DNA of 64,000 nucleotides from Riemerella columbina DSM 16469 (GTDB lineage: Bacteria; Bacteroidota; Bacteroidia; Flavobacteriales; Weeksellaceae): NCBI RefSeq assembly GCF_000374405.1, contig NZ_KB894273.1, positions 1 through 64,000 on the forward strand. Direction: 5' to 3'. Position 1 is the stretch's first letter, and each line of letters starts with the position of its first letter. The position numbers and the translations under genes were made by a program. The notes below the pieces were generated by a model. The model had not been told where the DNA came from. It saw only the letters and a program-made list of their open reading frames with translations, and did not search any database. This document shows positions 5,541 to 62,662 of this stretch, one piece after another.

Positions 5541-5555
5541 AGGTACAAAAATAAG

Positions 5556-5583
5556 AAAAAACTCACAGAAAACTGTGAGTTTT
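5556..5583 (-). terminator. Terminator between small membrane protein and TlpA-like gene
   Basis: The stem AACTCACAG / CTGTGAGTT with a four-base loop is followed on the minus strand by a T run. It lies just past the stop of the upstream gene at 5592 and ahead of the TlpA-like start at 5540. Confidence 0.75.
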
Positions 5584-5591
5584 AACAAGTT

Positions 5592-5849
5592 TTAAGTTAA
5601 ACTTTTAGACTTTTTATACTTTGAGATATAAATATAATAACCTACAAAAATCAAAATTGTAAAGGCTAATAAATACCATTCATACATGTCTATTGGATTT
5701 TTTGGCTTTTCACCAGGCCCTGCTACACCACCACCGCCACCAGTAGGAGGAGTAGGAGGAGCCCCAGGTCCAACTGTAGCAAATAACATTCCGCTACCAT
5801 AAAGTAGCAGTAAAGTAAAGTATAATTTTAATTTAATATTATTGTACAT
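5592..5849 (-). CDS. Small exported protein with Gly/Pro-rich linker and C-terminal membrane segment
   Basis: The 85-residue product has an N-terminal signal-like segment ending near LFA and a low-complexity linker rich in Pro and Gly (residues 27-50, PPTPPTGGGGG). Then come one hydrophobic segment (YLLAFTILIFVGYYIYI) and a lysine-rich tail. This is the layout of small signal-peptide proteins commonly found beside T9SS cargo genes in Chryseobacterium relatives. It lies 7 bases after the large T9SS gene, so the two are probably cotranscribed. The function is unknown. Confidence 0.65.
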   Translation of the reverse strand: MYNNIKLKLYFTLLLLYGSGMLFATVGPGAPPTPPTGGGGGVAGPGEKPKNPIDMYEWYLLAFTILIFVGYYIYISKYKKSKSLT

Positions 5850-5856
5850 ATTGTTT

Positions 5857-7800: not shown

Positions 7801-7837
7801 TTCAATTATTTTAATATTTTAAAAACAAAAATTTTGA

Positions 7838-7845
7838 CAAAGGTA
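7838..7845 (-). promoter_or_regulatory. -7 element of the T9SS protein gene
   Basis: The minus strand reads TACCTTTG, a match to the Bacteroidetes -7 consensus TAnnTTTG, 37 bases before the ATG at 7800. No clear -33 TTTG was found. Confidence 0.45.
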
Positions 7846-7866
7846 CAAAATATTTTTTATGTCTCA

Positions 7867-9036
7867 CTACTTTATTTGTATTTTTTCTGCAACAGTATCA
7901 ATATTATACATATAATCTTCCAAAACTTTTTCGGTGGTTCCTCTTAAACCACGCGCGCCTAAGCCTTTTTCAATGGTGTCGTCTACTATTTTTTCTAAGG
8001 CTTCATCTGTAATATCTAAATCCACACCATCCATAGCAAATAAGGCTTTAAATTGGTTGACAATAGAATTTTTAGGCTCTTTCATAATTCTAATCATGGT
8101 TTCTTTTGTCAGTTTTTCCAAATAGGTAATCACTGGAAAACGACCTAACAACTCGGGGATTAAACCAAATTTTCTTAAATCCGTTGAGTTGATATGTTTC
8201 AATAATTGTGAATCGTCCTCATCATTAGATTCTAATTTTTCTTTACTAAAACCAATAGCTTGTTTATTTAAGCGTCTTTCAATAATTTCTTGAATTCCAT
8301 CAAACGCACCCCCCGCAATAAATAAAATATTTTGGGTATTCACTTGAATATATTTTTGATCGGGATGCTTTCGTCCGCCTTGTGGTGGTACATTAACAAT
8401 GCTGCCTTCTAATAATTTTAACAAACCTTGCTGTACCCCTTCCCCAGAAACATCTCGGGTAATGCTTGGGTTGTCAGACTTACGAGCAATTTTGTCAATT
8501 TCATCAATAAAGACTATACCTTTTTCGGCTTTTTCTACATCGTAATCGGCTACCATTAGAAGTCTAGACAAGATACTTTCCACATCTTCGCCTACATAGC
8601 CTGCTTCGGTAAGAATCGTGGCATCTACTATACAAAACGGTACATTGAGTTCCCTTGCAATGGTTTTTGCCAATAGAGTTTTTCCAGTCCCCGTTTCACC
8701 TATCATGATGATATTAGATTTTTCAATCTCTACCTCTTTATTCTCTTCTTGTGCGTGGAGTAATCTTTTGTAGTGATTGTAAACCGCAATAGACAATTGT
8801 TTTTTAGCTTGGTCTTGACCAATCACATACTCGTCTAATTTTTTCTTAATTTCCCTAGGTTTTTTCAGCTCATTAATAGACTGTGCTGGAGCAAAGCCAT
8901 CACTTTTAATATGGTCTTTTACATAGGCATGAGCCTGTTCAATACAATTTTCGCAAATTAAACCATTGACGCCAGAAACCAGCATTTGAACTTCGTTTCT
9001 CTGTCTTCCACAAAAGGAACATTGGTTATTATTCAT
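7867..9036 (-). CDS. clpX: ClpX, ATPase subunit of the Clp protease
   Basis: The 389-residue protein unfolds substrates and feeds them to ClpP in the cytoplasm. It starts with the zinc-binding domain (Cys6, Cys9, Cys28, Cys31). It has the Walker A motif GETGTGKT at 113-120, a Walker [11 protein letters not shown], the GYVG pore loop and the sensor-2 region GLGARGLRG near the C-terminus. The length is close to the usual 400-425. No clpP lies next to it, unlike many bacteria. Neighbours on the same strand are a HIT protein and greA. Confidence 0.95.
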
Positions 9037-9094
9037 AGTAATATGATTCTGTTAATTTAAATTTTAGTTAAAAAAAGACGACCTTTTATACTAA

Positions 9095-9490
9095 CTAATT
9101 GGATGCCGACTGAATACGATTCTGAATATCTTGATACGCTTCAGTGCTCAATTTAAGTCGGTCTTGTTTAAAGTTTAACTCCTCTACTTTGTCAATAGGA
9201 ACTAAATGAATGTGCGCATGAGGCACCTCTAGTCCCACGACTGCTACGGCAACTCTCTTTTCGGGATAAGCTTTTCCTAACTGCTTAGCCACTTTCTGAG
9301 CAAATGCCCAAAGATTTTTGAACGCTTCCGAGTCTAAATCGAAAATTAAGTCTACCTCTTGTTTAGGAATTACAAGCGTATGACCCTCTGCTAAAGGCAT
9401 AATGTCTAGAAATGCCAAATGTTGATTGTCCTCTGCCACTTTATAAGCAGGGATTTCGCCGTCGATTATTTTTGTAAAAATAGAAGCCAT
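9095..9490 (-). CDS. HIT-family nucleotide hydrolase
   Basis: The 131-residue protein has the histidine triad HAHIHLVPI near residue 92, the nucleotide-binding and catalytic signature of HIT proteins. The N-terminus (MASIFTKIIDGEIPAYKVAE) is typical of the bacterial Hint-like branch, which hydrolyses AMP-linked substrates. It lies 28 bases downstream of greA on the same strand and is probably in one transcript with it. The physiological substrate is not known. Confidence 0.9.
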   Translation of the reverse strand: MASIFTKIIDGEIPAYKVAEDNQHLAFLDIMPLAEGHTLVIPKQEVDLIFDLDSEAFKNLWAFAQKVAKQLGKAYPEKRVAVAVVGLEVPHAHIHLVPIDKVEELNFKQDRLKLSTEAYQDIQNRIQSASN

Positions 9491-14072: not shown

Positions 14073-14999
14073 TTAACTAAATGATGATGGATTCTGAGGA
14101 GTCTGAGAATTTTGAGGCATCTGTTCCATTTGTAAAGTTCTGATTGGAAATGGAATATTAATGCCGTGGGCATCAAAAGTTTTTTTAAGCGCCACCATCA
14201 AATTGCTTTTTTGTAGTGCCACTTGTAATCCAGAGTTGGTATTAATCATACATCGAACTTCAAAATCAATAGCACTATCCGCAAATTCTTTATACATAAA
14301 CACGATATCCGCATCTTCCACTAAATCCTCTACAGTAGCCTTTACTGTATCAATCGTTAATTGTTTTACCAGTTCCAAGTCCGACTTGTATCCTACCCCA
14401 CAATTCAAAATTAGTTTTCTTTGAAAAGTAATAGACGAATTTTTAATCGGTTTTTCTAGCACCAACTTATTAGGAATCAGCACAATGTTATTATCCACAT
14501 CTTTTATCGTAGTCATTCTAAAGTCGATATCAATCACTTCACCAGAATAGTTATTAGATGAAATCCAGTCGCCAATTTTCACATCTTTAACTAAAGATAA
14601 TACAATTCCAGAAAACGTATTGGACAAAGTACCTTGTAAGGCTAAACCAACGGCCAAACCCATCACCCCTGCACCAGCAAGAATGGTCTTTAAGATTCCG
14701 TTAAGGTTTAACACCATTAAGACTAAGAAAATCCCTATCGTAATGACTAGGCCAGCGACGGATTTTGCCACTACATTTTTAGCAGAATCTTGTAAACTGG
14801 TTCTAATCAGAAGTTTTTTAGTTAGTTTATTGATAAAACGGGAGAGAAACAAACAGATGATAAAGATAACAATGGCAACAATAACATTAGGAATGTTAGA
14901 ATAAATTGCCCGTTGCCAAGATTCTAATTTATCATAAGCCTTGTCCCAAGCACTATCTATACCTACCGCAAAATGGTTTTTTGAGGTTTGTAAAAACAT
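14073..14999 (-). CDS. Small-conductance mechanosensitive channel, MscS family
   Basis: The 308-residue inner membrane protein has three hydrophobic segments. The pore-lining third carries the Gly/Ala pattern GAGVMGLAVGLALQGTLSN, which is diagnostic for MscS. The cytoplasmic beta domain follows (VKIGDWISSNNYSGEVIDI). It releases solutes during hypo-osmotic shock. The C-terminus is Gln/Asn/Pro-rich. It lies downstream of guaA on the same strand with a 26-base gap. Confidence 0.92.
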   Translation of the reverse strand: MFLQTSKNHFAVGIDSAWDKAYDKLESWQRAIYSNIPNVIVAIVIFIICLFLSRFINKLTKKLLIRTSLQDSAKNVVAKSVAGLVITIGIFLVLMVLNLNGILKTILAGAGVMGLAVGLALQGTLSNTFSGIVLSLVKDVKIGDWISSNNYSGEVIDIDFRMTTIKDVDNNIVLIPNKLVLEKPIKNSSITFQRKLILNCGVGYKSDLELVKQLTIDTVKATVEDLVEDADIVFMYKEFADSAIDFEVRCMINTNSGLQVALQKSNLMVALKKTFDAHGINIPFPIRTLQMEQMPQNSQTPQNPSSFS

Positions 15000-15025
15000 A
15001 CTTTTATTTTTTTATTAAAATTAAT

Positions 15026-16555
15026 TTATTCCCACTCAATCGTCGCTGGTGGTTTGCTCGAAATATCGTAAGCCACACGATTGATACCTTTTACTTCGTT
15101 GATGATTCTATTAGATACTTTTTCTAAAAACTCCCAAGGAAATCTACTGAAAGTTGCCGTCATAAAATCAATAGTATTGGCAGAACGCACCACAGCCGTA
15201 TATTCATAAGTTCTTTCATCGCCCATTACTCCAACCGATTTTACAGGTAATAGTACCACAAACGCTTGAGACACCTTTTCGTAAAGGTTGTTGCTATAAA
15301 GCTCTTCTATAAAAATATCGTCTGCTTTTTGAAGAATTCTCACTTTTTCTGCATCTACCGCACCTAAAACCCTAATACCCAAACCTGGACCTGGGAATGG
15401 ATGGCGATATACTAAATGATGTGGAATACCTAGCTCCTCGCCTACTTTTCTTACTTCATCTTTAAACAATTCTCTTAATGGCTCTAGCAATTCAAACTCC
15501 ATATCTTCAGGTAGCCCGCCTACATTATGGTGAGATTTAATCACCGCAGAAGGTCCATTAACCGATTGAGATTCAATAACATCAGGATAAATGGTTCCTT
15601 GAGCTAAAAACTTAGCCCCTTCAATTTTATGAGATTCTTCATCAAAAACCGCTACAAATTCATTACCGATGATTTTTCGCTTTTGTTCTGGGTCAGAAAT
15701 GCCCTCTAATTTAGATAAAAATCGTTCGGACGCGTCAATCAATTTAATGTTAAGATGAAAATGCTCCCCATAGTTTTTCATCACCTTTTTAGCTTCATCT
15801 TTTCTTAGAAGCCCCGTATCTACAAAAATACAAGTCAATTGGTCACCTATGGCTTTATGGATCAGCACTGCTGCCACAGAAGAATCTACCCCGCCCGATA
15901 AACCTAAAATAACTTTTTGGTTGCCTACTTTAGCACGGATATCGGCGATGGTTTTATCGATATAATTGGTTAATTTCCAATTCTTTTCGGCGTGGCAAAT
16001 ATCAAACACAAAATTTTGAAGCATCTTAGCCCCTTCCTCAGTATGAGAAACTTCTGGGTGAAACTGAACGCAATAAATGCCTTTATCTTCATTAGAAATT
16101 GCAGAAATCACTCCTGTTTTAGCATTAATATCAAAACCTTCTGGTGGTGTTTCTACCTCGTCAAAATGGCTCATCCACACCGTAGACTGCTGGTTTACCC
16201 CATTAAATAATGCCGAAGTTTTTTCGATATGTAATTCTGCTTTACCGTATTCCCCTTTTACGCCTTTTTTTACTTTTCCACCTAGCAAATGAGTCGTCAA
16301 CTGCATACCATAGCAAATACCCAGTATCGGAATATGTTGTTCAAATAAGGCTTTCTCTACTAAATGCGCATCGGCGGCATTAACAGAACTCGGTCCTCCA
16401 GACAAAATGATACCTTTAGGTTTTTTAGCCAATAATGTATCGATGGGCGTGTTGTAAGGTAAAATTTCGGCGTAGACTTCCATTTCACGAATACGACGCC
16501 CAATTAATTGGTTGTATTGAGAGCCAAAGTCTAAAATAATAATTCCGTTTTCCAT
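15026..16555 (-). CDS. guaA: GMP synthase (glutamine-hydrolysing)
   Basis: The 509-residue enzyme converts XMP to GMP using ATP and glutamine. The N-terminal class I amidotransferase domain has the nucleophile in GICYGMQ (Cys81) and the partner histidine and glutamate in QFHPEVSHTEEG. The ATP pyrophosphatase domain has the P-loop SGGVDSSV near residue 220. The C-terminal dimerisation domain ends with the conserved KPPATIEWE. It is next to purD, another purine gene on the same strand. Confidence 0.97.
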   Translation of the reverse strand: MENGIIILDFGSQYNQLIGRRIREMEVYAEILPYNTPIDTLLAKKPKGIILSGGPSSVNAADAHLVEKALFEQHIPILGICYGMQLTTHLLGGKVKKGVKGEYGKAELHIEKTSALFNGVNQQSTVWMSHFDEVETPPEGFDINAKTGVISAISNEDKGIYCVQFHPEVSHTEEGAKMLQNFVFDICHAEKNWKLTNYIDKTIADIRAKVGNQKVILGLSGGVDSSVAAVLIHKAIGDQLTCIFVDTGLLRKDEAKKVMKNYGEHFHLNIKLIDASERFLSKLEGISDPEQKRKIIGNEFVAVFDEESHKIEGAKFLAQGTIYPDVIESQSVNGPSAVIKSHHNVGGLPEDMEFELLEPLRELFKDEVRKVGEELGIPHHLVYRHPFPGPGLGIRVLGAVDAEKVRILQKADDIFIEELYSNNLYEKVSQAFVVLLPVKSVGVMGDERTYEYTAVVRSANTIDFMTATFSRFPWEFLEKVSNRIINEVKGINRVAYDISSKPPATIEWE

Positions 16556-16583
16556 AATGAATTTTTGTGATGTCTATTAAAAA

Positions 16584-16638
16584 TTTGAGATTTAAAATCT
16601 TTAAAGACCCGAAGCCCATAAAAATTTTAAATCTCAAA
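16584..16638. repeat. 15-bp inverted repeat between purD and guaA
   Basis: The arms TTTGAGATTTAAAAT (16584-16598) and ATTTTAAATCTCAAA (16624-16638) are perfect inverted copies separated by 25 bases. They lie between the purD stop (16659) and the guaA start (16555). The stem could act as a purD terminator or a processing site in a purD-guaA transcript. There is no long T run. Confidence 0.6.
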
Positions 16639-16658
16639 GATAAAATTGATTTTATATG

Positions 16659-17897
16659 TTAAAATTTAGCAATGTCTTCACGATAGAATGCATAGTCAAA
16701 TTTTACAGGTAGTGCATCGGAATACACCTTATCTCTTGCTTCTTTGTAAGTTGGTGCAGTCGCCACTAAGTTGAGCACACGCCCACCGTTCGTAACGACT
16801 CTTTCGCCTTGCTTAGTTGCTCCAGCGAATAGTACTTCGCTATGTGAAACTTTGTCTAAACCTCGGATTTCAAAGCCCGTTTCAATATTTCTTGGATAGC
16901 CACCAGAACACATCACTAGGCATACGGCTTTTTCATCTTTAAATTTAAGCTCTATCGGTTTGCCTTCTAAACAATCTTCTATTAAATCGTAAAGGTTGTT
17001 TTCTAACAATGGCATAATCACCTGAGTTTCTGGGTCGCCTAATCTCATATTGTATTCTAGACAGTAGCAACCATCAGCAGTCACCATTAACCCAAAGAAA
17101 ATAAAGCCTTTAAACTCTAAATCTTCTTCTTTAAGCCCTGCCATCGTTGGTTTTAGAATATTTTTTCTAAAGTCTTCCATATGTTCTTCGGTAAACTCTG
17201 GACTTGGCGCTACGGCACCCATACCGCCTGTATTGGCACCTTTGTCGCCTGTACCTACTTTTTTATAATCTTTTACTGGTAAACATGGGAACAATTCCTT
17301 ACCATTAGAAAATGCTATAATAGAAGCTTCAAATCCTTTTAAATACTCTTCAATAATCACGCGGATACCAGCATCGCCATAGATTTTTCTAATCATAAAA
17401 TCATAGATTACTGCTTCGGCTTCTTCTTTATCATCGCAAATCATCACCCCTTTTCCACCTGCTAGACCGCTGGCTTTCACTACCAATGGATAAGATTTGG
17501 TTTGCAAATAAGATTTCGCTTCTTCGTAAGAATCAAAGACTTTAGCTTTAGCCGTTTTGATGCCATGGTTTTGCATAAACTTTTTAGAAAAAGCCTTACT
17601 TCCCTCTAGAACTGCCGTTTTCTTTTCTGGTCCAAACACTCTTAAATCGTGTTTTTTAAACTCATCTACTAGACCATCTACCAACGGAGCTTCTGGACCT
17701 ACAATGGTTAAATCAATTTTATGTTTGATAGCAAAATCTCTTAACGAGATGATATCCGTTTCATGGCAAGTTTTACCAATGTTCTGTGTGGTGGCATTCC
17801 CTTTAGCAAAATACATTTCGGTAATGCGTTTATCTTCTTTTAATTTTAAGGCTAAGGCTGACTCTCTACCGCCATTCCCTACGACTAATATTCTCAT
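16659..17897 (-). CDS. purD: Phosphoribosylamine-glycine ligase (GAR synthetase)
   Basis: The 412-residue enzyme performs the second step of purine synthesis. The N-terminus has MRILVVGNGGRESALALKL, the nucleotide-binding start of GARS. The ATP-grasp core has KASGLAGGKGVMICDD and the metal-binding signature EYNMRLGDPETQ near residue 285. Length matches the family. It is upstream of guaA in the same direction. Confidence 0.97.
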   Translation of the reverse strand: MRILVVGNGGRESALALKLKEDKRITEMYFAKGNATTQNIGKTCHETDIISLRDFAIKHKIDLTIVGPEAPLVDGLVDEFKKHDLRVFGPEKKTAVLEGSKAFSKKFMQNHGIKTAKAKVFDSYEEAKSYLQTKSYPLVVKASGLAGGKGVMICDDKEEAEAVIYDFMIRKIYGDAGIRVIIEEYLKGFEASIIAFSNGKELFPCLPVKDYKKVGTGDKGANTGGMGAVAPSPEFTEEHMEDFRKNILKPTMAGLKEEDLEFKGFIFFGLMVTADGCYCLEYNMRLGDPETQVIMPLLENNLYDLIEDCLEGKPIELKFKDEKAVCLVMCSGGYPRNIETGFEIRGLDKVSHSEVLFAGATKQGERVVTNGGRVLNLVATAPTYKEARDKVYSDALPVKFDYAFYREDIAKF

Positions 17898-50629: not shown

Positions 50630-52648
50630 ATGTCACAACAAGAAGACGATTTGAGGGCATTGGCGAAAATCATGGATTTTCTGCGTGCCGTGAGTATCAT
50701 TTTAGTGGTCATGAACGTGTACTGGTTCTGCTACGAAGCCATCCGGCTGTGGGGCGTGAACATCGGCGTGGTGGACAAAATCCTTCTGAACTTCGACCGC
50801 ACGGCGGGGCTGTTCCATTCCATTCTCTACACGAAGCTGTTTTCCGTCCTTTTGCTTGCCTTGTCCTGTCTGGGTACGAAGGGTGTCAAGGGTGAGAAAA
50901 TCACTTGGGGGAGAATCTGGACAGCATTTGCCGTCGGGTTCGTGCTGTTTTTCCTGAACTGGTGGTTGCTGCCCCTGCCGCTGCCGCTTGAAGCGGTGAC
51001 GGGACTGTATGTCCTTACCATTGGAACGGGCTATGTCTGCCTGTTGATGGGTGGTCTGTGGATGAGCCGCCTGTTGAAACACAATTTGATGGAGGATGTT
51101 TTCAACAACGAGAACGAGAGTTTCATGCAGGAAACGAGGCTTATCGAAAGCGAGTATTCGGTCAATCTGCCGACACGTTTCTATTACAGGAAACGCTGGA
51201 ACAACGGTTGGATCAATGTAGTTAATCCCTTCCGTGCGTCCATCGTGTTGGGTACGCCGGGCAGCGGCAAGTCCTATGCCGTGGTAAACAATTTTATCAA
51301 GCAACAGATTGAAAAGGGCTTTAGTCAATACATCTACGATTTCAAGTATCCCGACCTATCTACTATTGCCTACAACCATTTGCTGAACCACCCGGACGGC
51401 TACAAGGTAAAGCCGAAGTTCTATGTGATCAACTTCGACGACCCGCGACGCTCTCATCGGTGCAATCCCATTCACCCGGATTTTATGGAAGATATTACGG
51501 ATGCCTATGAGAGTGCCTACACAATAATGCTCAACCTCAATAAAACGTGGGTGCAAAAGCAGGGCGACTTCTTCGTGGAGTCACCTATCATTCTGTTTGC
51601 CAGTATTATCTGGTATCTCAAAATCTATCAGAACGGGAAGTTTTGCACGTTTCCCCATGCTATCGAGTTTCTGAACCGCCGTTACGAGGATATATTTCCG
51701 ATACTGACCTCTTATCCGGAGCTGGAGAACTACCTTTCGCCGTTCATGGATGCGTGGCTTGGAGGGGCTGCGGAGCAGCTCATGGGTCAGATAGCGTCGG
51801 CAAAAATCCCGCTTTCGAGGATGATTTCACCGCAGCTCTACTGGGTGATGTCAGACAGCGAGTTTACGCTGGACATCAACAATCCCGAAGAGCCGAAAAT
51901 CCTCTGCGTGGGTAACAATCCCGACCGTCAGAATATCTACGGTGCGGCACTCGGTCTGTATAATTCCCGTATCGTGAAGCTCATCAACAAGAAGGGGATG
52001 CTGAAGTCATCGGTCATCATCGACGAGTTGCCCACAATATACTTCAAAGGGTTGGACAATCTTATAGCTACCGCCCGAAGCAACAAGGTTGCCGTGTGTC
52101 TGGGCTTTCAGGATTTCAGCCAGTTAGTGCGTGACTACGGGGACAAAGAGGCGAAAGTGGTGATGAACACTGTCGGCAATATTTTCTCCGGTCAGGTGGT
52201 GGGGGAAACAGCCAAGACGCTCTCCGAGCGGTTCGGTAAGGTGTTGCAGAAACGGCAGTCCATCTCCATCAACCGGCAGGATGTTTCCACCTCCATCAAC
52301 ACGCAGATGGACGCGCTCATTCCACCGAGTAAGATTTCCGGGCTTACGCAGGGAATGTTTGTCGGTTCTGTATCCGACAACTTCAACGAGCGTATCGAGC
52401 AGAAGATTTTTCATTGCGAGATTGTGGTGGATGCCGAAAAGGTGAAACGGGAAGAAAGTGCCTACAAGAAAATTCCCGTCATTACAAACTTCACGGACGA
52501 GGACGGCAACGACCGCATGAAGGAAACGGTGCAGGCGAACTACCGGCGCATCAAGGAAGAGGTGAAGCAGATTGTGCAGGAGGAACTGGAGCGTATCAAA
52601 AACGATCCGGTGCTGTGTAAACTGCTACCAGATAATGAGACTGTCTAA
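50630..52648 (+). CDS. mobC: MobC, VirD4-type coupling protein
   Basis: The 672-residue ATPase links the relaxosome to the channel. It has N-terminal hydrophobic segments (residues 20-140), Walker A GTPGSGKSYAVV near residue 207 and Walker B SSVIIDELPTIY near 462. The C-terminal part (residues 480-640) has DFSQLVRDYGDKEAKVV and other T4CP features. The stop codon lies inside the left arm of a 131-bp inverted repeat, so the end of the gene may have been reshaped by that element. Confidence 0.92.
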   Translation: MSQQEDDLRALAKIMDFLRAVSIILVVMNVYWFCYEAIRLWGVNIGVVDKILLNFDRTAGLFHSILYTKLFSVLLLALSCLGTKGVKGEKITWGRIWTAFAVGFVLFFLNWWLLPLPLPLEAVTGLYVLTIGTGYVCLLMGGLWMSRLLKHNLMEDVFNNENESFMQETRLIESEYSVNLPTRFYYRKRWNNGWINVVNPFRASIVLGTPGSGKSYAVVNNFIKQQIEKGFSQYIYDFKYPDLSTIAYNHLLNHPDGYKVKPKFYVINFDDPRRSHRCNPIHPDFMEDITDAYESAYTIMLNLNKTWVQKQGDFFVESPIILFASIIWYLKIYQNGKFCTFPHAIEFLNRRYEDIFPILTSYPELENYLSPFMDAWLGGAAEQLMGQIASAKIPLSRMISPQLYWVMSDSEFTLDINNPEEPKILCVGNNPDRQNIYGAALGLYNSRIVKLINKKGMLKSSVIIDELPTIYFKGLDNLIATARSNKVAVCLGFQDFSQLVRDYGDKEAKVVMNTVGNIFSGQVVGETAKTLSERFGKVLQKRQSISINRQDVSTSINTQMDALIPPSKISGLTQGMFVGSVSDNFNERIEQKIFHCEIVVDAEKVKREESAYKKIPVITNFTDEDGNDRMKETVQANYRRIKEEVKQIVQEELERIKNDPVLCKLLPDNETV

Positions 52649-52773
52649 CAAGTCCCCAAAATTGAAAATTATCCCTATCGAAGTTTGAAGTGACCCCCAA
52701 AAGTTGGATACAATTTTTTTGGGGGGCACTTCAGTTCTGACGGGTAAAATCGTAAAATTCGGACTTGTTAGAC
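52643..52773. repeat. 131-bp nested inverted-repeat element after mobC
   Basis: The outer arms GTCTAACAAGTCC (52643-52655) and GGACTTGTTAGAC (52761-52773) are perfect 13-bp inverted copies. Inside, TGAAGTGACCCCCAAAA (52686-52702) faces TTTTTTTGGGGGGCACTTCA (52714-52733) with one mismatch. The inner arms look like IS3-family type ends as found in Bacteroidetes. The mobC stop lies in the left arm and the KAP gene stop is 7 bases past the right arm. It may be a MITE, a remnant of an IS, or a bidirectional terminator. Confidence 0.7.
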
Positions 52774-52779
52774 AAATAC

Positions 52780-55700
52780 TTACGCGGTTTCAACCTCAGG
52801 TACTGAATCTATCGAATTGACAAATTTAACCAATTGCGGATCTGAATCTTTTTGTATGAGGTTTCGGAGACTCTTTTTCAATTCATAAGCATCATCCCCT
52901 GCTGTATTTATTAAATCCATATAAAAATCTTTGTTTTGCAGAATCAATGAACGGCATGCCCCATCGGAAATTACAGGTTTCACTATTTTATCAATAACGT
53001 CTCCAGCTTGACTTTTCAAATTACCATGCGATCTAAGCCATGTTTCGAAAAATTGAAACTTTATTGCATTGATAGTCTTTTTACCGATGCAGAAATCATT
53101 TCTTATATCGGTAACTGTCGATTTAATTTTTCGTTTATCCAATCTTTCAACTATATTCTTGAAACAATTAGGGAAAGGATTCAAACTTTGAGTTCCAGAA
53201 GCAATATCCATCAGAATCTTTTTGCCAAATTCAGTCAAGTTATCTGGCAAGGATTTGATTTTAGCCAGTAAATGTTTTATTGCGACAAACCAATAATATG
53301 ATGTATGTGCTGTTCTTTGGGCGTATAATGTATCAACACTTATTTCAGACAACGCTTCGAACGCTATTTTATTGATATGATCGGTCAGGACATTGCTTAT
53401 TTTAGTGGTCAAATCGTAAAAAGATGCGTCAGGAATTACATCTTTAATATTGTTCTTAGTGATATACTTATCCAAATCGGTATTCCACTCTGCTAAATGC
53501 TCGATAAATACCTCATCCGTTACACCTATTCTGTTCTTAATATCTTCAAATTGGGGCAATATGTCTGAGAGCAATAATTTATAGCCAAGTTTATGATTTA
53601 CCATGTATTGTAGTGTTTCATTTAATAGCGGTATATTCCATCCCACACTATTTACTAATAAGTCTCCATGATCCACATAATAGTCCATGAGTTCTGCAAC
53701 ATATTTTATATCTCCACCCTCTATTAAGGAAACGGAATGACCATGTGCCAATTGCATGGCGACTAAATCGTAATATCCAGACTCTTTAATGTTTCGGCCA
53801 TCAGTTTCTAATTCAGAATGCAACTGATTTATGTAGGTTGAATCTAACGTTACAGGTAAAGGTCTTTCTTCGTCAGATGCCAATAAACGATAGGTTGTAA
53901 ATATAGCCCCTATATTATCTTTATTTACATTCTGTTCATCAATGCAATTCGTGATCGCTTGCAAAAGCGTTGGAAACGTATAGGTAGAATTATCTTTTAA
54001 CGTTTTTACAATATCTGCATGGTCGAAATTATCGGGTAGTAAGTTTGCCAAATAATTATCGAGCGCCTCCGAATTTGTTGCTACTTGATAATATTTATAT
54101 GCTTTAGTTGTCGCGTTATCCCGATAGGCAGCATCTGTTGCATTTGCAGCTTGAATATAATCGATAAATGTATTTGGCTTGACTGTTTTTGCTTCAATCA
54201 ATGACGTAAAATCGCACGCCAACTTATTTTGCGCAATAAACCTGTCTATTGCATCTAACGTTTTGAAATAGTCGCCGCCATTGAAGTCATTGAACCGAAC
54301 TATCTTCTTATATAATTGAGCAATCACATGGTTTTGGCTTTCCGTGTCTAAATGCAACAGCAGTTCTTGGTATTCGACAGGGAACACCTGCTTCTCTATG
54401 GATTCTTTTAATTTCAATTGTGCTATTCTTTGCCATACACGCAGAATAACATCGCTCTTTCGAGTTAATTTATGCAAACAATGTATAATCTTATCGATAA
54501 GCGCATTGTCCATACATTGTATAACTTCTTCTAATACAGTGTCAAATTGTTTATTAGTCTCTGCATATTGATTTATGTCGTGGTCTTCTTCTCCGTTGAT
54601 GCAGCCTTCAATATATTTTTTCAATGGAATTTGTCGAGCATCTTCAACATCGACACCATATACCAAAGCTGCAATTTCGCGTTGTGTTTGCAGATCATTG
54701 TTAATTATTGTTTGAATGCCATTCAGATAGTCGCCGGACAATATTTGTTCTACTGGATTTGCCAGAATATCCGTCTTCTTCAAACAGAACAATGCTATGT
54801 TTATCATCAAAATTTCGTTACACCACTCTTGTTTAAGAGCGACCATCTCATTGATATATGATATAATTTCCCTAACATTGGCATTAGGATTTACCAATCT
54901 GAATATCCGATTTATAGTTTCTTTCGCTTCATTTTCTGTTTCTCCAAATGCTTCAACAAACAGTTTGTTGAATATACTTCGATAGTCGGTAATAACAGGA
55001 GGAGCAACACGATAAACAATAGGGAAAGTTTTATTGATAAAATACTTGGTCAGTTGTTTCGTTTGTTCGTCGGTCTCATCTCCGAATGCACAAGCTAAAT
55101 GTGTTTCATCGAAAGGAATAACAGCCCAAACATTTTCAAAACCGCTATCGGCGAAGAACGTATGGATAGAAGACCATAATTCTTTTACTTTTTCAGCGGG
55201 GAGACGATCCATGTTGTCAAAAACAAGGACTAATTTACGTTGTCCTTTTTCCTTGATAAAATCAGAAATGTCTTGCATCCATGTTTTGAACTCGTAAACC
55301 GTTGGTTCGTCTTCGCTCAAAGTCTCATAGCAAACGTCCTTTTCGACTTTATCTTGATAAATAGCTAACATATAACTCCATCCATATTTATGATCTTTGC
55401 TATATGCCCATTTCCAAACGCACAATGCAATAAGAACTGGCAGTGCAGCTATGATAATAGACAATAAAGAAAACCACCATGTTGTGGGTGTAGGTTTTAC
55501 TGCATACGCAATAAATGTAAATATCGGAGTTAAAACTGCAACCAAAAATGCCGCAACCATACCATTACTGATAAGGGGATATTTTTCGGTTACGGTCTCC
55601 GTTTTACGGGCTAATAAATATTTCAGCTTTTCAGACCATGATACGGTTTTCGTACCTCCACCTTTGACTTTTATTGTTGCATTTCCAGATAGGATACCAT

Positions 55701-56034
55701 CATCAATAAGTTTGCTTGTAAGCAATTCCAATATAGAGCGGCGTTGCAAGTCCTCTTGATGTCCCCATGCGTCATACTCAAAAAAGTAATAGTCGTCTGA
55801 TAATTCACGTTCCAACATTTTAACCACGTTGGATTTTCCAGATCCCCAAATACCTTCGATGCCGATAATTCGAGGTAAAGTACATTCCTCATCCAATGAA
55901 TCATTCTGACAAAAATGGCGAGCAATAGTTTTTGCCAACCTTTCTTGCGAACCTCCATCGAATTTGTCAATACCACACGGTTTATTTTGGATAAACCGCG
56001 GATATTGCTGTTTGGATTGTAGTTTTGTTTCCAT
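52780..56034 (-). CDS. Large KAP-family P-loop NTPase
   Basis: The 1084-residue protein belongs to the KAP NTPases, many of which are membrane-linked and found in accessory DNA. The Walker A is GIWGSGKS at 61-68. Walker B is LVLVFDNMDRLP at about 268-279. Two membrane helices lie between them (about 158-179 and 188-208), which is the classical KAP arrangement. The C-terminal 700 residues are helical with no recognised domain. It is AT-rich against its ICE neighbours, suggesting separate acquisition. The DUF4143 ATPase gene ends 16 bases before its start, so the pair is one transcript. A phage-defence role is inference. Confidence 0.85.
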   Translation of the reverse strand: METKLQSKQQYPRFIQNKPCGIDKFDGGSQERLAKTIARHFCQNDSLDEECTLPRIIGIEGIWGSGKSNVVKMLERELSDDYYFFEYDAWGHQEDLQRRSILELLTSKLIDDGILSGNATIKVKGGGTKTVSWSEKLKYLLARKTETVTEKYPLISNGMVAAFLVAVLTPIFTFIAYAVKPTPTTWWFSLLSIIIAALPVLIALCVWKWAYSKDHKYGWSYMLAIYQDKVEKDVCYETLSEDEPTVYEFKTWMQDISDFIKEKGQRKLVLVFDNMDRLPAEKVKELWSSIHTFFADSGFENVWAVIPFDETHLACAFGDETDEQTKQLTKYFINKTFPIVYRVAPPVITDYRSIFNKLFVEAFGETENEAKETINRIFRLVNPNANVREIISYINEMVALKQEWCNEILMINIALFCLKKTDILANPVEQILSGDYLNGIQTIINNDLQTQREIAALVYGVDVEDARQIPLKKYIEGCINGEEDHDINQYAETNKQFDTVLEEVIQCMDNALIDKIIHCLHKLTRKSDVILRVWQRIAQLKLKESIEKQVFPVEYQELLLHLDTESQNHVIAQLYKKIVRFNDFNGGDYFKTLDAIDRFIAQNKLACDFTSLIEAKTVKPNTFIDYIQAANATDAAYRDNATTKAYKYYQVATNSEALDNYLANLLPDNFDHADIVKTLKDNSTYTFPTLLQAITNCIDEQNVNKDNIGAIFTTYRLLASDEERPLPVTLDSTYINQLHSELETDGRNIKESGYYDLVAMQLAHGHSVSLIEGGDIKYVAELMDYYVDHGDLLVNSVGWNIPLLNETLQYMVNHKLGYKLLLSDILPQFEDIKNRIGVTDEVFIEHLAEWNTDLDKYITKNNIKDVIPDASFYDLTTKISNVLTDHINKIAFEALSEISVDTLYAQRTAHTSYYWFVAIKHLLAKIKSLPDNLTEFGKKILMDIASGTQSLNPFPNCFKNIVERLDKRKIKSTVTDIRNDFCIGKKTINAIKFQFFETWLRSHGNLKSQAGDVIDKIVKPVISDGACRSLILQNKDFYMDLINTAGDDAYELKKSLRNLIQKDSDPQLVKFVNSIDSVPEVETA

Positions 56035-56050
56035 ATACGTAATTTATTGA

Positions 56051-57181
56051 TTATACGAACTCCAAATAATTCTCCCGATTTACCACATGAAACTCGGCAT
56101 AGGGATAGGCTTCTTGGAAGGCTTTCGGTGCGGCCGGCATTTTATTTCCCCACTTGAACTCCAAGGCGGTAAGACTGTCGGCACTCTCCTCAATCAGGTC
56201 GATTTCCTGTTTGTCGTAGGTGCGCCAGAAATAGAACTCCCTGTGCAGTCCCTCATTGAAGTTCGCTTTGCGCCGCTCTCCGATGATGTAGTTCTCCCAC
56301 AGCGCACCGACATCCTGCCGAATGGCCAGCGGTGAGAAAGCCCCGATAATGGCATTGCGAATGCCGTTGTCGTAGAAGTACCACTTGCCAGCTTTTGTAA
56401 CCTCCTTGCGTAGGTTACGCGAATAAGCCCCCAGACGATAGATAACGAAGACCTTTTCCAATAGGTCGAGGTATTTTTCAACGGTCGTCTTGCTCATGCC
56501 GAGTTGTTTACCTAACTCTTCGTAAGAAACTTCGCTGCCCAACTGAAAAGCTATCAATCGCAGTAGATCGCGCATCTTGCTCGAATTTTTTAAGCCGTCA
56601 ATTGCTAAGATATCTTTAAGCAGGTATGCACCGACAATATCACGTAGGTAGTCTGTTTTACGTTCATAGTTCTCCATCATTACTACTTCGGGATAGGAAC
56701 CGTAAATCAAGCGCGCTTCGAGGTTCTGGCGGGTTTCAAGTGCCGTTTCCGTCTGTGCGATTTCCCGTTGCGAGAATGGTGTAAGGAGAAATTGCGTACT
56801 GCGGCCGACCAACGGTTCACCAGTCTTATTCAGCAAATCGAATGACGAAGAACCACTTGCCAAGACACTTATTCCCGGTATTTCATCAACTATCAACTTC
56901 AGAATACTACCGATTTGTGGTATGTTCTGTGCCTCATCAATAGCCAGCAAATCAATACCATCCAATAAATGCCGATAATTGGCTATTGAGCGATTCTCCA
57001 ATAGTGCTAATGTGTCGTAGTCTTCGCCGTTGAGCATCATCGTCCTACCTGAATAGTTGTCCACAATTTTACGCATCATTACCGTTTTACCAACACGGCG
57101 AGCACCAAAAATCAGTACTGCTTTATTGGGCGCGATTCGTGCTGTAATCTTCTCTTGAAGTATTCTATTTACTGTTTCCAT
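56051..57181 (-). CDS. AAA_14/DUF4143 ATPase with PD-(D/E)xK-like C-terminus
   Basis: The 376-residue protein has a Walker A GARRVGKT at 26-33, Walker B LLAIDEAQN at 79-86 and a sensor LASGSSSFDLL. The middle has a winged-helix-like part (SYEELGKQLGMSKTTVEKYL). The C-terminal DUF4143 region holds KQEIDLIEE and LTALEFKWG (Glu326, Asp328, Glu341, Lys343), a nuclease-like spacing. It is first in the unit with the KAP gene. A -7-like TATCTTTG lies at 57200-57207 upstream. Function is not established. Confidence 0.85.
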   Translation of the reverse strand: METVNRILQEKITARIAPNKAVLIFGARRVGKTVMMRKIVDNYSGRTMMLNGEDYDTLALLENRSIANYRHLLDGIDLLAIDEAQNIPQIGSILKLIVDEIPGISVLASGSSSFDLLNKTGEPLVGRSTQFLLTPFSQREIAQTETALETRQNLEARLIYGSYPEVVMMENYERKTDYLRDIVGAYLLKDILAIDGLKNSSKMRDLLRLIAFQLGSEVSYEELGKQLGMSKTTVEKYLDLLEKVFVIYRLGAYSRNLRKEVTKAGKWYFYDNGIRNAIIGAFSPLAIRQDVGALWENYIIGERRKANFNEGLHREFYFWRTYDKQEIDLIEESADSLTALEFKWGNKMPAAPKAFQEAYPYAEFHVVNRENYLEFV

Positions 57182-57482
57182 ACCTTATAAAATATAATGC
57201 AAAGATAATCATATTTTTTTAATTGGCGAATTTTACAAAAAAAACGGGCTATTAAATGGCGATTTTTACAACCACAATCTTATGGAAGTTGTTTCATTGT
57301 TTTTAGTAATGATATATGTTCATACTATGATGACTCAATAATTTACCAGACATACGTTTCTGAAATTTGTCCTTATAGGAATGAAAAACTCACATATATT
57401 GTGCTAATTAATATATAATTAAATGAAAATAAAAAGACAGGATACGAGTATTCCTGTCTTCTCATATGTAATGGATATTTTT
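57182..57482. other. Intergenic region downstream of rteC, possible RteR small RNA locus
   Basis: No protein gene is visible here. It holds the probable promoter of the DUF4143 gene (minus strand TATCTTTG, 57200-57207) and the rteC terminator at 57434-57460. In CTnDOT a small RNA called RteR, which lowers transfer gene expression, is encoded just downstream of rteC, from literature recall. The equivalent place is here, but I cannot define its ends. Confidence 0.4.
57431..57460 (-). terminator. Terminator after rteC
   Basis: The 9-bp stem AAGACAGGA / TCCTGTCTT with a nine-base loop is followed on the minus strand by TTTTATTTT. It lies 23 bases past the rteC stop. Confidence 0.85.
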
Positions 57483-58088
57483 TTATTTTCTCATCCGCTC
57501 CAACTCCTCATCACGCAACATTCTCTCGTTCAGTTTTTCCTGCATCCTGTCAATGAAATAGGTGCGGCTTTCGTTCTTCCGGCGTTTGATATCAGTGTAG
57601 AAGCGGTAGCAGTCTTTAGAATCAACCCCGAATATCTTATAGAGAAGTGGGGCGAGCTGTTTGAGCGGCATATTGCCGTTGTTGATGCAGCCCATCACGT
57701 CTATGCCGTAGATAAGTTCCACGAGGTCGATGGCATTGCCCGTCCATTGAAGAAGGCTGGCGGTGGTTTCTGTTGCGTTGTTGGCGGATATTAGTGGTGG
57801 CACTTGGGGCGTGGCAAGGAATTTCTGCATCTTTCTTACGAAAGACAGAGCCTTGCTGACGTAGGCGGCAATCTCTCTTTTTTCTTCTGACAGATTACGT
57901 ACGGGATGGTGCTGCAACTCGATTTCGATGTAGGCAAGCGCGATGACGGTAAGGTTCATGTCCATGCCGCCGTTGCACAGTTCGATCACTTGGGTGGCGA
58001 AAGCCGTGTATGCCGTTTCCATATTGCAGTCGCCGGCTTCGTTTATCAGGCGGAAAAAGTCGGTTTCCGCCAGCAAGAAATAATTCAT
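57483..58088 (-). CDS. rteC: RteC, regulator of excision and transfer
   Basis: The 201-residue protein starts at 58088 (MNYFLLAETDFFRLINEAGD). Upstream in-frame starts at 58136 and 58151 would add 16 or 21 residues, so the start is uncertain. The sequence matches RteC: NLTVIALAYIEIELQHHPV and YKIFGVDSKDCYRFYTDIKRR with a helix-turn-helix in the C-terminal part. RteC is known to activate the excision operon of CTnDOT after RteB induces it. It has its own terminators on both sides, so it is a separate unit. Confidence 0.92.
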   Translation of the reverse strand: MNYFLLAETDFFRLINEAGDCNMETAYTAFATQVIELCNGGMDMNLTVIALAYIEIELQHHPVRNLSEEKREIAAYVSKALSFVRKMQKFLATPQVPPLISANNATETTASLLQWTGNAIDLVELIYGIDVMGCINNGNMPLKQLAPLLYKIFGVDSKDCYRFYTDIKRRKNESRTYFIDRMQEKLNERMLRDEELERMRK

Positions 58089-58171
58089 GGTTCTGTCAAT
58101 TTTGAAAATTACACTTTGTTTTCTGCGTGCGCACATGAATATAATTGGCAAAAAACGCGGCAGAAAATAAA

Positions 58172-59028: not shown

Positions 59029-60351
59029 CTATGATTGCTTGAATTTATATTTAAGTCCATACTCTTCAAGTTTGCTGTATAGTGTTGTCCTGCCTATGCC
59101 GAGCAGTTCTGCGGCGACACTCCGGTTGCCGTTTGCCTGTTTCAACGCACGCAATATCCGCTCCTTATCCTCCGCGTCATTGCGCAAGGCGAAGCTGACA
59201 GTAGAGGTCGGTTTCGTCACGGCAAGTTCCAGATGCTCTTTCATGACAACACCTTCCTGCGCCTGCAATACAGCACCCATAACTTTCTGCCGAAGTTCCC
59301 GCACGTTGCCCGGCCATGCGTGTGTCAGCAACGCTTTACGTGCTTCGGAACTGAACCCGCTCACGCTACACTCCAGCTCTCTGTTTGCCATATCACGGAA
59401 GAACTCTGCCAGCGGCATAATGTCTTCTTGACAGTCACGCAACGGAGGAACGGTTATCCCGAAGTCGTGCAGGCGGTACAGAAGATCCTGCCGAAAACGC
59501 TTTTCATTCACCGATACCTCCAAATCTTCATTGGTAGCAGCGATGATGCGGACATTGAAATTCCGGTCTGCCTTGTCTCCGACCGGGCGATACCGCCTCT
59601 CCTGTATGGCACGGAGCAACATCTGTTGGGTTTCCAACGCGAGGTTTCCTACCTCGTCCAGAAACAACGTGCCGCCTTCCGCCTCATGGAAATATCCTTT
59701 CTTGGCATTGTCCGCACCTGTAAATGCACCTTTGACGTGTCCGAAGAAAGCCGACGGTGCAAGCTCTTTGGAGAGTGAACCGCAGTCCACCGCCACAAAT
59801 GGCTTGCCTGCACGTTTGCTCTTGTCATGCAACAGGTGGGCAATATGCTCCTTGCCCGTGCCGTTCTCACCAAATATCATCACGCTCATATCGGTGGCGG
59901 CTACCAGCCTTATGCGGTGCATGATTTTCTGAAAGGCGGAACCTTCACGGGCGAATATAGGCATACGGCGTTGTCCTGCCTGACGTTCTTTCAGTATGGA
60001 ACGGATCAGGGGGACAAGTTTATCCTCCACAAGCTGTTTGGGAATATAGTCTATCGAGCCGAGTTTCATGCTTTCCACGGCGGTATTAACTTCGGCGTAG
60101 TCGGTCATAATGATGAAGGGCTGCATCTTTCCCTCCTTTCGCATCCAGCACAAAAGGTCTATGCCACTGCCGTCAGGCAGACGCAGGTCGGCAACCACGA
60201 TATCATTATCTGTTGCCTGTTGCAGATGTTTCTTCGCGGTTGAGAGGTGGTAAGCCTTCATATTGCGGTAGCCCTCCCGTGACAGCATATTGCAGACATA
60301 TTCGCAATACACGATGTTGTCTTCCACCACAATTATTTTTGTCTTATCCAT
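59029..60351 (-). CDS. rteB: RteB, NtrC-family response regulator
   Basis: The 440-residue activator has a receiver domain with the phospho-acceptor Asp55 (VVADLRLPDG). The sigma-54 type AAA+ domain has GENGTGKE at 161-168 and GAFTGA at 208-213, and a C-terminal Fis-type helix-turn-helix (NRSVAAELLGIGRTTLYSKL) ends the protein. In CTnDOT, RteB activates rteC on tetracycline exposure. It overlaps rteA by 8 bases and is last in the tetQ-rteA-rteB operon. Confidence 0.95.
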   Translation of the reverse strand: MDKTKIIVVEDNIVYCEYVCNMLSREGYRNMKAYHLSTAKKHLQQATDNDIVVADLRLPDGSGIDLLCWMRKEGKMQPFIIMTDYAEVNTAVESMKLGSIDYIPKQLVEDKLVPLIRSILKERQAGQRRMPIFAREGSAFQKIMHRIRLVAATDMSVMIFGENGTGKEHIAHLLHDKSKRAGKPFVAVDCGSLSKELAPSAFFGHVKGAFTGADNAKKGYFHEAEGGTLFLDEVGNLALETQQMLLRAIQERRYRPVGDKADRNFNVRIIAATNEDLEVSVNEKRFRQDLLYRLHDFGITVPPLRDCQEDIMPLAEFFRDMANRELECSVSGFSSEARKALLTHAWPGNVRELRQKVMGAVLQAQEGVVMKEHLELAVTKPTSTVSFALRNDAEDKERILRALKQANGNRSVAAELLGIGRTTLYSKLEEYGLKYKFKQS

Positions 60352-62662
60352 CTTCGTATTTTCTCCTTTCCTCTTCTGCCAACCGTATTATTTCCACTCC
60401 CTTATCCAGCACAGCAGTCACGGCATGGCTTAACGCTTCACCATCCGGGAGAGCATCGCCACGAAGCAATCCGTAAAGTACATTCAGCGGTTGGTCGGCA
60501 CGGAGCACCTCCCACGAACTGCGCAGGTGGTGGATCAGGGAATCCAGCTTTTGCAGGTCTTTTTCTTTTGCTGCATCCCGTACCGCCTGCATTTCCTTTT
60601 CTGTTTCAGTTATCAACTTTTCCAGCATGACGGCTTCATTGCCATAGGACAATAAGGCGGAAAAGTCCGGTTTCCCGTCCGGTGTCGCTTTTATGGCACA
60701 CCTGTCGGAAACCTCCATCAGTTCCGATATGGAGAACGGCTTGAACAGGCATCCGGCAAAGCCTTTTGCCAATAGTTCCCCTTTGTTACAACTGCCCGAA
60801 GCGGTTGCCACAACCACCGGGATTGTTGGTGAATTGCCCACGTTGGACGAACGCAACAGTTCCAGCAATTCGAAACCGTTTATACCAGGCATATTCAAGT
60901 CTGTCAGCAACAGGCTGTATTCTTTCTGGCGTATCATTTCCATCAGTGCCGCAGCATCGGTGCAAGTGTCGCAGTGTATTCCTTCTTGGGAATACATCTC
61001 TTTCAGCATTAGAAGTAATACCTCATCATTGTCAATGGCGACAACATCATGGAATTTATTGTTATGATAAACAGGTGTATTGCTTGTATATCCAAGCTGT
61101 TCTTCAGCTTCCTGCATAGAAATTTCAACTGTGAAACGACTGCCTTTCCCTTTCTTGCTGTCCAAACGGATTGTTCCGCCAAGCATCGACACAATATTAC
61201 GCATTATGGCAAGCCCAAGCCCGAAACCCTCCTTTGCAGCGGCATTTGATAGACGTTCAAACGCACCGAACGCTTGTTTCTGTTCCTCTTCTGTCATGCC
61301 TGTACCTGTATCTTCAATGACCAGTGTCAGAACTCCATTATCATATTCAGTAATCAAAGAAACACCGCCTTCTTCTGTGAACTTGACAGCGTTTGACAGC
61401 AGGTTATTCCCGATTTGTATTATTCGCTCTTTGTCGGTCAATACAATGGCATCGTGTCCAGTCTTCACGGACAAGGACAACCCTTTGTTCACGGCAACAG
61501 GCATGAACTCCGTTTCAAGTGTGTGCGTGATTGCAGAAATCCGGCAGGGTGACAGACGGGGCTGTTCCTTGCCGTTGTCCAGGCGGAAGAAGTCAAGCAA
61601 AGTGTTGAGCATATCCCGCATACGGTCGGAGGATTGCAGTATATTTTGGATATATTGCCCATTATTACCGCTATTGCATTCTTTCCGCAAAAGTTCGGTA
61701 TAGCCGGTTATTGCCGTCAGTGGTGTACGCAACTCATGGGTAATAGTATATACCGCTTTCTTTCGGGAGGTTATGAGTATCTCATTTTGTTGCACGGACT
61801 GTTCCAATTGCTCGATCAAATCCGTTGTCTTGCGTTTGTATCGTTTAATGTTCTTTGCATCACGGTGTATGATGATATAGGAAATGACCAACAGCAAAAG
61901 AACAAATCCCATCAAGCCGCCTATCTGCATAAATGATTTTTTACGCATGGCTGTTATCTCGCTTTCTCTATTTTGTAAATCAGATTGCACCTTCTTTTCG
62001 ATTTGGCAAATCAATCCTTGCAGTTGTCTGTTAAGTTCTGCATTACGAGCAGCAAGACTATCGGCTTGTTCTGACAATCGACGGCTCTGCGCATTCTGTT
62101 CGTTGACCATGTTTCTATTGGATGAACGGAGCGTAGTCGTTGTTGTCGTTGGCTTCGTTCCCTCTTTTTTGCCGAAGATGCTCAAGAAACCTTTTCATTT
62201 TGGCTTTTTGGACTGTTCCTGCACACTTTTCTGCACAATAACCGGAATTTGATTGGCTATCTTCTTGTTAATAGATTGTTGTTCATCCATTAACCGGACT
62301 ATCTGGAACATCTGTCGTTCCTTATCCTCTAAAAGACTGCGCACACTATCGATGCGCTCTGCTGGATAGGTGGCCTTGAAACGGCAAAGCATACTGTCCA
62401 TTGCCATACGCCGTGCATGGTAATGCTCGATATCTTTATCGTTCCATTCCAGTATTGTTTCACCCAATAGAGAAAATTTTATCATTTGAATATTGATATT
62501 GTTTATTTCTTTTCGGAGCTCGTCTATTTTTTTATTGCCAAGTTCTAATGCTTCTATCTCCTGCCATTCATAGAGGCTATTATATGCCATACATCCGATA
62601 AGAATGGAGATAAGTATATATCCCAACTGTATTGCCTTATAGAAATTTCCTGACCGCTCCAT
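60344..62662 (-). pseudogene. rteA: RteA hybrid sensor kinase interrupted by an in-frame TGA
   Basis: One reading frame from the ATG at 62662 runs to 60344 with a single TGA at 62195-62197 (codon 156). The first part has a signal anchor (AIQLGYILISILIGCMAY) and helices up to KKPK. After the stop KGFLSIFGKKE continues smoothly to the second membrane helix, the kinase H box THELRTPL, the ATPase domain, a receiver (LLLTDLNMPG) and a histidine phosphotransfer-like end. The start overlaps the tetQ stop in TAATG. A TGA from CGA would be a single transition. TTG at 62183-62185 with AAAAGG before it could restart translation. Confidence 0.85.

Follow-up and report, generated by a model that had tools for sequence, protein, structure and literature searches.

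What kind of cargo lies between the coupling-protein gene mobC and the regulatory gene rteC of the integrative and conjugative element (ICE) in Riemerella columbina DSM 16469, and do its two genes act together? The stretch analyzed here (the window) comprises 64,000 nt of contig NZ_KB894273.1. At this place it encodes a KAP-family P-loop nucleoside triphosphatase (NTPase), hereafter KAP, and an AAA_14/DUF4143 ATPase, hereafter DUF4143. In gut and oral Bacteroidia, tetracycline resistance is spread to a major extent by ICEs of the CTnDOT type; if the cargo of this nearly clonal one is a phage defense gene, tetracycline resistance and phage protection travel together. We propose that KAP is a stand-alone membrane NTPase resembling Tmn and PifA, most likely anti-phage or anti-invader in function, and carried as exchangeable ICE cargo (probability of about 0.62). 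We favor this reading because relatives of KAP have defense genes as neighbors and because defense genes are swapped into the same slot in other ICEs.

The KAP protein and the neighbors of its relatives

The following features define KAP.
52780 to 56034, minus strand: KAP-family P-loop NTPase, 1084 aa, a probable stand-alone membrane defense gene (PF07693, 1.3e-18)
55831 to 55863, minus strand: Walker A, residues 58 to 68, GIEGIWGSGKS (sequence motif)
55399 to 55578, minus strand: transmembrane hairpin, residues 153 to 212, two hydrophobic segments within the NTPase domain (hydropathy)
55207 to 55236, minus strand: Walker B region, residues 267 to 276, terminating in VFDNMD (sequence motif)

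The PF07693 P-loop domain scored 67.7 bits against a cut-off of 20, which places the protein in the KAP family. KAP NTPases with inserted membrane segments, such as PifA and Tmn, act by mechanisms that are poorly known. The two hydrophobic segments of KAP (residues 153 to 181 and 183 to 212) fall after Walker A and ahead of Walker B (about residues 267 to 276). The same layout was found in all 11 relatives tested, which span 1036 to 1167 aa; the Walker B pattern used was unmatched in 3 of them. The C-terminal portion of approximately 650 residues is predicted to be helical in a structure model of low confidence. Fold searches with this model gave weak matches alone, to ORC, RuvBL, and other ATPases, and searches of solved structures turned up no useful relative of KAP. 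By analogy with PifA and Tmn, we infer an anti-phage role in which KAP would sit in the inner membrane via the hairpin that interrupts its NTPase domain and its long helical C-terminal part would sense a cue of infection. ATP-driven assembly of KAP would then damage or depolarize the membrane, halting the infected cell.

We compared the neighborhoods of KAP relatives at 12 loci outside this ICE lineage, at 20 to 79% identity over their length (L060 to L063, L134 to L137, and L184 to L187; L-numbers denote loci fetched for comparison). KAP relatives adjoin SIR2-HerA (L137), two GmrSD proteins (L061), AbiEii and PDC-S02 (L134, the KAP of which is 79% identical), Septu PtuA/PtuB (L186), a type IIG restriction-modification (R-M) protein and a DISARM-like helicase (L187), and a caspase (L185). 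In L060 and L136, the relative lies next to a phage-type integrase; no defense model matched the neighbors tested in L060, and those tested in L184 gave weak partial matches only. Most of the KAP relatives lie outside ICEs of the CTnDOT/ERL kind and occur as stand-alone genes. A separate observation concerns L186, where a CTnDOT-like ICE carries the Septu-like pair together with the KAP relative (positions 4607 to 9194; the relative matches as two pieces, at 70% and 46% identity). By eye, the gene adjoining them resembles a large N-6 methylase-like ICE gene.

An exchangeable cargo slot in a CTnDOT/ERL-family ICE

The gene pair is bordered by the following features.
50630 to 52648, plus strand: mobC, encoding the coupling protein; bounds the cargo slot on the left (NCBIfam MobC, 1123 bits, cut-off 900)
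52642 to 52774, no strand: nested palindromic element at the mobC/KAP junction, with an outer 14-bp perfect inverted repeat and an inner 17-nt inverted repeat
57483 to 58151, minus strand: rteC, right slot border in sister ICEs without DUF4143 (PF09357, 1.1e-25)

KAP is convergent with mobC, and rteB, rteA, and tetQ follow beyond rteC. The genes mobA, mobB, and mobC all score above their NCBIfam cut-offs, giving the mobABC set of the CTnDOT/ERL family. The rteABC and tetQ set of that family is also present, with RteC recognized by Pfam and the response regulator, histidine kinase, and Tet(Q) by Pfam/NCBIfam. The element is a CTnDOT/ERL-family ICE carrying tetQ. A preliminary description of the sequence had placed two large NTPase genes between the mob and rte modules of a CTnDOT-type ICE, with Walker motifs in KAP, membrane helices between its Walker A and B, and a KAP gene richer in AT than the rest. 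Each of these statements agrees with our results. The GC content of KAP is 0.361 (0.324 at third codon positions, GC3), compared to 0.463 (GC3, 0.52) for DUF4143 and 0.50 to 0.55 (GC3, 0.68 to 0.70) for mobB and mobC (0.502 and 0.681 for mobC).

Around position 30000 of the window, the GC content climbs from approximately 35% to more than 50%, setting the ICE off from the host chromosome. The window copy of rteA (60344 to 62662) has an in-frame TGA at codon 156 (62195 to 62197), and the encoded sensor kinase is therefore truncated; the frame is open in the sister ICE L222. This rteA allele (60344 to 62185) differs by about 8% at the protein level from most KAP-bearing copies and matches L222, a pattern that we read as a sign of recombination between ICE lineages. 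The palindrome at the mobC/KAP junction (133 bp) has a fold z-score of -7.9 and contributes the last codons of mobC. Among the fetched loci, its outer repeat is confined to this junction in those KAP-bearing copies of the ICE that reach it; the palindrome could act as a terminator in both directions or be the scar of a transposon.

To locate the edges of the slot, the window was aligned by blastn with sister ICEs (L222 to L225), the mobC genes of which are 95 to 97% identical. On the left, homology ends at 52596-52597, within mobC. On the right, it restarts at 56041 to 56051, at the stop of DUF4143, in L224 and L225, and at 57469 to 57478, at the stop of rteC, in L222 and L223. The slot is empty in L223, in which mobC abuts rteC; L222 carries a gene for a SocA/Panacea-type antitoxin and a 251-aa gene; and L224 carries a Gabija pair (PADLOC, 6e-189 for GajA and 2e-298 for GajB). 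Slot genes were scanned with defense models in a chosen subset of ICEs with mobC 64 to 97% identical to that of the window. A Schlafen AlbA_2/Fic-like protein is encoded in L226 (mobC, 88%). In more distant ICEs, the slot holds type II methyltransferases (L235, L238, and L253), type III R-M (L241), SspD (L230), PDC-S02 with SIR2 (L251), AbiEii (L254), a Ppl-like protein (L231), Gabija without DUF4143 (L114), PDC-S26 with a DrmC-like protein (L103), and an MkoC-like protein (L126). The interval from mobC to rteC is a general cargo slot with exchangeable contents, rich in defense genes. This swappable slot is the useful find, the ICE family itself being already known, and the position behind mobC is a simple place to seek new defense systems (KAP, Gabija, R-M, SspD, and SIR2 were found there).

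These data also bear on the idea that KAP serves the ICE itself, for example in entry exclusion of a second ICE or in transfer control, instead of in phage defense. KAP adjoins mobC, a distant relative (L062) also lies near a mobilization module, and a membrane location would suit exclusion. However, L222 and L223 do without KAP, other ICEs have R-M or Gabija in its place, and most KAP relatives reside outside such elements. We consider a role in the service of the ICE quite unlikely.

Two further observations concern mobC and the ICEs of this group. In L026, mobC is interrupted at nucleotide 922 (14484 to 16898, about 2.4 kb), and the gene is broken at this site in L018, L028, and L051 as well; the interruption is possibly a group II intron or an insertion sequence (IS) common to several genomes. 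The genome of the window carries a second related ICE (L112, G000:C16:2500-20418; mobC, 75%), the slot of which holds what resembles, by eye, a peptide-exporter gene cluster.

To follow the spread of the element, one genome per species was scanned. The KAP gene was found in 40 contigs, nearly 100% identical except in one of them, L045 (87%). Nearly all of these contigs are from Bacteroidia, and the gene was also present in two plasmid records. Where both sides were visible, the gene order was constant: tetQ-rteA-rteB-ribD-rteC-DUF4143-KAP-mobC. The window KAP is identical to copies from gut Bacteroidales, an order to which the window genome does not belong, and both KAP and DUF4143 are nearly invariant across the approximately 40 Bacteroidia species carrying this ICE. 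One carrier (L036) is Bacteroides fragilis Q1F2, a strain listed in the study that describes a CTnDOT/ERL ICE in Riemerella (PMC6491836).

The DUF4143 ATPase and its relation to KAP

The second cargo gene and its presumed promoter are as follows.
56051 to 57181, minus strand: AAA_14/DUF4143 ATPase, 376 aa, leading gene of the likely operon (PF13635, 7e-44; PF13173, 2.3e-25)
57083 to 57106, minus strand: Walker A, residues 26 to 33, GARRVGKT (alignment of homologues)
56153 to 56206, minus strand: PD-(D/E)xK-like motif, residues 326 to 343 (D328 and E341-x-K343 invariant, alignment)
57200 to 57207, minus strand: candidate Bacteroides -7 promoter box TATCTTTG (consensus match only)

A single DUF4143-KAP transcript, as the preliminary description had it, is plausible at the sequence level because the genes are co-directional with DUF4143 first, the gap between them is 16 nt, and a Bacteroides-type -7 box was seen 26 nt upstream of the DUF4143 start and none directly upstream of KAP. 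The description had also noted a PD-(D/E)xK-like ending in the DUF4143 protein. D328 and E341-x-K343 are invariant across 10 homologues, and this C-terminal motif is consistent with a putative PD-(D/E)xK nuclease; searches of solved structures found no homologue of the protein. Viral-contig searches with it gave nothing of use. With both AAA_14 and DUF4143 domains, the protein matches PDC-S01 of PADLOC (1.3e-154, 513 bits). However, PDC-S01 is a candidate system only, and relatives of the DUF4143 protein elsewhere (47 to 54% identical) mostly occupy conserved housekeeping contexts. Many of them share one recurring chromosomal setting, e.g., beside rpiB-like and tex-like genes (names by eye), which reads as vertical inheritance and not as a defense island. 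As proof of defense, DUF4143 is weakened by these contexts.

The preliminary description had combined the two proteins into a mobile anti-phage or conflict module, pairing a membrane NTPase with a nuclease-like ATPase. To examine this pairing, we searched for the partner gene at the 12 loci of KAP relatives described above and at 15 loci of the closest DUF4143 relatives, all outside this ICE lineage. A DUF4143 homologue was found beside a KAP relative in none of the 12, and KAP was found beside a DUF4143 relative in none of the 15; in L134, the 0.7 kb visible upstream of KAP is taken up by AbiEii, and the far side is unseen. Moreover, L224 and L225 retain DUF4143 (96% and 98%, respectively) with GajA and GajB at the position of KAP. 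Within the ICE clone, L022, L023, and L028 have an intact KAP next to a broken DUF4143, and the converse holds for L036, L039, L042, L049, L052, and L056. Since each gene breaks while the other is intact, neither shields the cell from the other. We also rejected a toxin-antitoxin pair, since KAP can stay intact where DUF4143 is lost, as in L023, in which an inserted element cuts DUF4143. This element is approximately 1.8 kb long (7529 to 9363) and is flanked by an 8-bp target duplication.

A two-component defense system built from both proteins would account for their adjacency and shared direction, the short gap, the likely single promoter, and the presence of both genes wherever both sides of this ICE are visible. 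The pair has also been linked since the split from L045 (dS of 0.34 and 0.42, similar values). Nevertheless, we find such a system improbable: the partners do not co-occur elsewhere, Gabija stands in for KAP after the same DUF4143, either gene can be broken alone, and their GC3 values are unequal (0.32 for KAP and 0.52 for DUF4143). A conserved two-gene system was accordingly rejected on the co-occurrence counts and the Gabija substitution. What holds of the proposed module is its mobility, which is strongly supported, and, for KAP, an anti-phage or conflict role, supported by defense neighbors and slot swaps; the pairing does not.

Alternatively, the DUF4143 ATPase could be a shared accessory (a regulator, sensor, or licensing factor) ahead of defense modules that can be interchanged (KAP in one clade of these ICEs, Gabija in another). 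It heads both operons, with gaps of 16 and 19 nt, its dN/dS is 0.023 whichever the partner, below that of RteB (0.085), and it has a weak helix-turn-helix match at residues 213 to 245. However, the L114 ICE has a complete Gabija in the same slot without DUF4143, close homologues are found mostly in chromosomal housekeeping contexts, and three ICE copies keep KAP intact behind a broken DUF4143. A shared accessory therefore appears rather unlikely to us. In its stronger form, in which the AAA/PD-(D/E)xK-like protein would be the universal front gene of a defense cassette, a sensor or licensing factor for interchangeable effectors (KAP and Gabija), the ICE would swap effectors and keep the same trigger; this, too, we judge unlikely. 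The DUF4143 ATPase is an independently conserved protein and not an obligate partner of KAP.

Selection, gene loss, and comparison with known systems

To assess whether KAP is maintained, we compared substitution rates and gene breaks. The dN/dS of KAP is 0.16 versus L045 and 0.14 versus L134, and that of DUF4143 is 0.03 versus L045 and 0.023 versus L224/L225. Judged by these ratios, KAP is under long-term purifying selection. In the recent ICE clone, KAP is broken in 13 of 42 loci through about 11 independent events, counts in which one-base frameshifts may be sequencing errors and contig-end interruptions may be assembly artifacts. The breaks include nonsense mutations at codons 63 and 267, one deletion of 26 bp and two of 1 bp, a tandem duplication of 10 bp, insertions, and a recombination. 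The contigs L046 and L058 belong to one genome and overlap by 5 bp of KAP, an arrangement like that left by an IS that duplicates a 5-bp target on insertion. Break events numbered 11 over 137 kb-copies in KAP versus 5 over 375 in core ICE genes (p = 5e-4), and nonsynonymous changes in KAP were in excess of the rest (9 versus 10, p = 0.02). Positive selection for KAP loss is hinted at by these figures, no more, as the break rates resemble those of DUF4143 and ribD.

It could be argued that both genes are passengers without present function, spread by a recent sweep of the tetQ ICE. In favor of this, the copies of the ICE are almost clonal, and about 11 independent breaks are seen in KAP. The strong purifying selection over the longer term (dN/dS of 0.14 to 0.16 for KAP and 0.02 to 0.03 for DUF4143) argues against it, and we regard passengers as highly improbable.

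Four points weigh against a defense role for KAP. First, its excess of breaks equals that of other cargo genes (0.080 broken genes per kb-copy for KAP, 0.066 for DUF4143, and 0.124 for ribD), which shows dispensability and not necessarily toxicity; plain dispensability therefore explains most of the KAP loss. Second, the slot also holds, by eye, metal/drug efflux and other nondefense cargo, so that the slot alone is no proof of defense. Third, no model of a known system reached its cut-off for KAP in the PADLOC and NCBIfam searches. Fourth, the structure model of KAP is of low confidence (pLDDT of 62 and pTM of 0.33). Natural broken and intact KAP copies in nearly identical elements make the defense question testable.

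Against known defense models, the matches of KAP to QatA and PifA were weak (27 to 43 bits, PADLOC). QatA of qatABCD, a KAP NTPase with an extra C-terminal domain (PMC13279940), shares this architecture with KAP and was its best PADLOC model match (43 bits). However, KAP reached 27.4 of the 600 bits of the NCBIfam equivalog cut-off, and neither a QueC-like QatC nor a TatD nuclease is adjacent. KAP as QatA was rejected on this score and on its neighbors, which are mobC, DUF4143, and rteC, with no QatB, QatC, or QatD. PifA, encoded on the F plasmid, is likewise a KAP family protein on a conjugative element; it reportedly senses T7 proteins and kills by membrane depolarization, and abortive infection has been proposed for it (PMC8594841). 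It matches KAP with 27 bits only, over residues 33 to 80 around Walker A and not over its full length.

Among elements, ICERanRCAD0179-1, a CTnDOT/ERL ICE in Riemerella, belongs to the same family and shares mobABC, rteABC, and tetQ; in the excerpted text of its description (PMC6491836), a "prokaryotic ATPase" cargo gene is left unexplained, the cargo is not recognized as a defense slot, and KAP is not named. ICEBs1 (PMC8880864) is also an ICE with an anti-phage gene, but element and protein are unrelated to those described here.

Tmn, a KAP NTPase encoded by a single gene, has two transmembrane segments. It blocks several phages, by a mechanism not yet known, and its activity was shown in E. 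coli (PMC11846954). No Tmn model was among the PADLOC or NCBIfam matches of KAP, and these libraries may hold none. The window KAP differs in its length of 1084 aa and its long helical C-terminal part, and we liken the two by anatomy and description, for the gene alone. Shared by both are the KAP NTPase domain, the two membrane segments, the single gene, and a mobile or defense context; KAP thus has the anatomy of the Tmn type, and its relatives show the stand-alone occurrence that goes with it.

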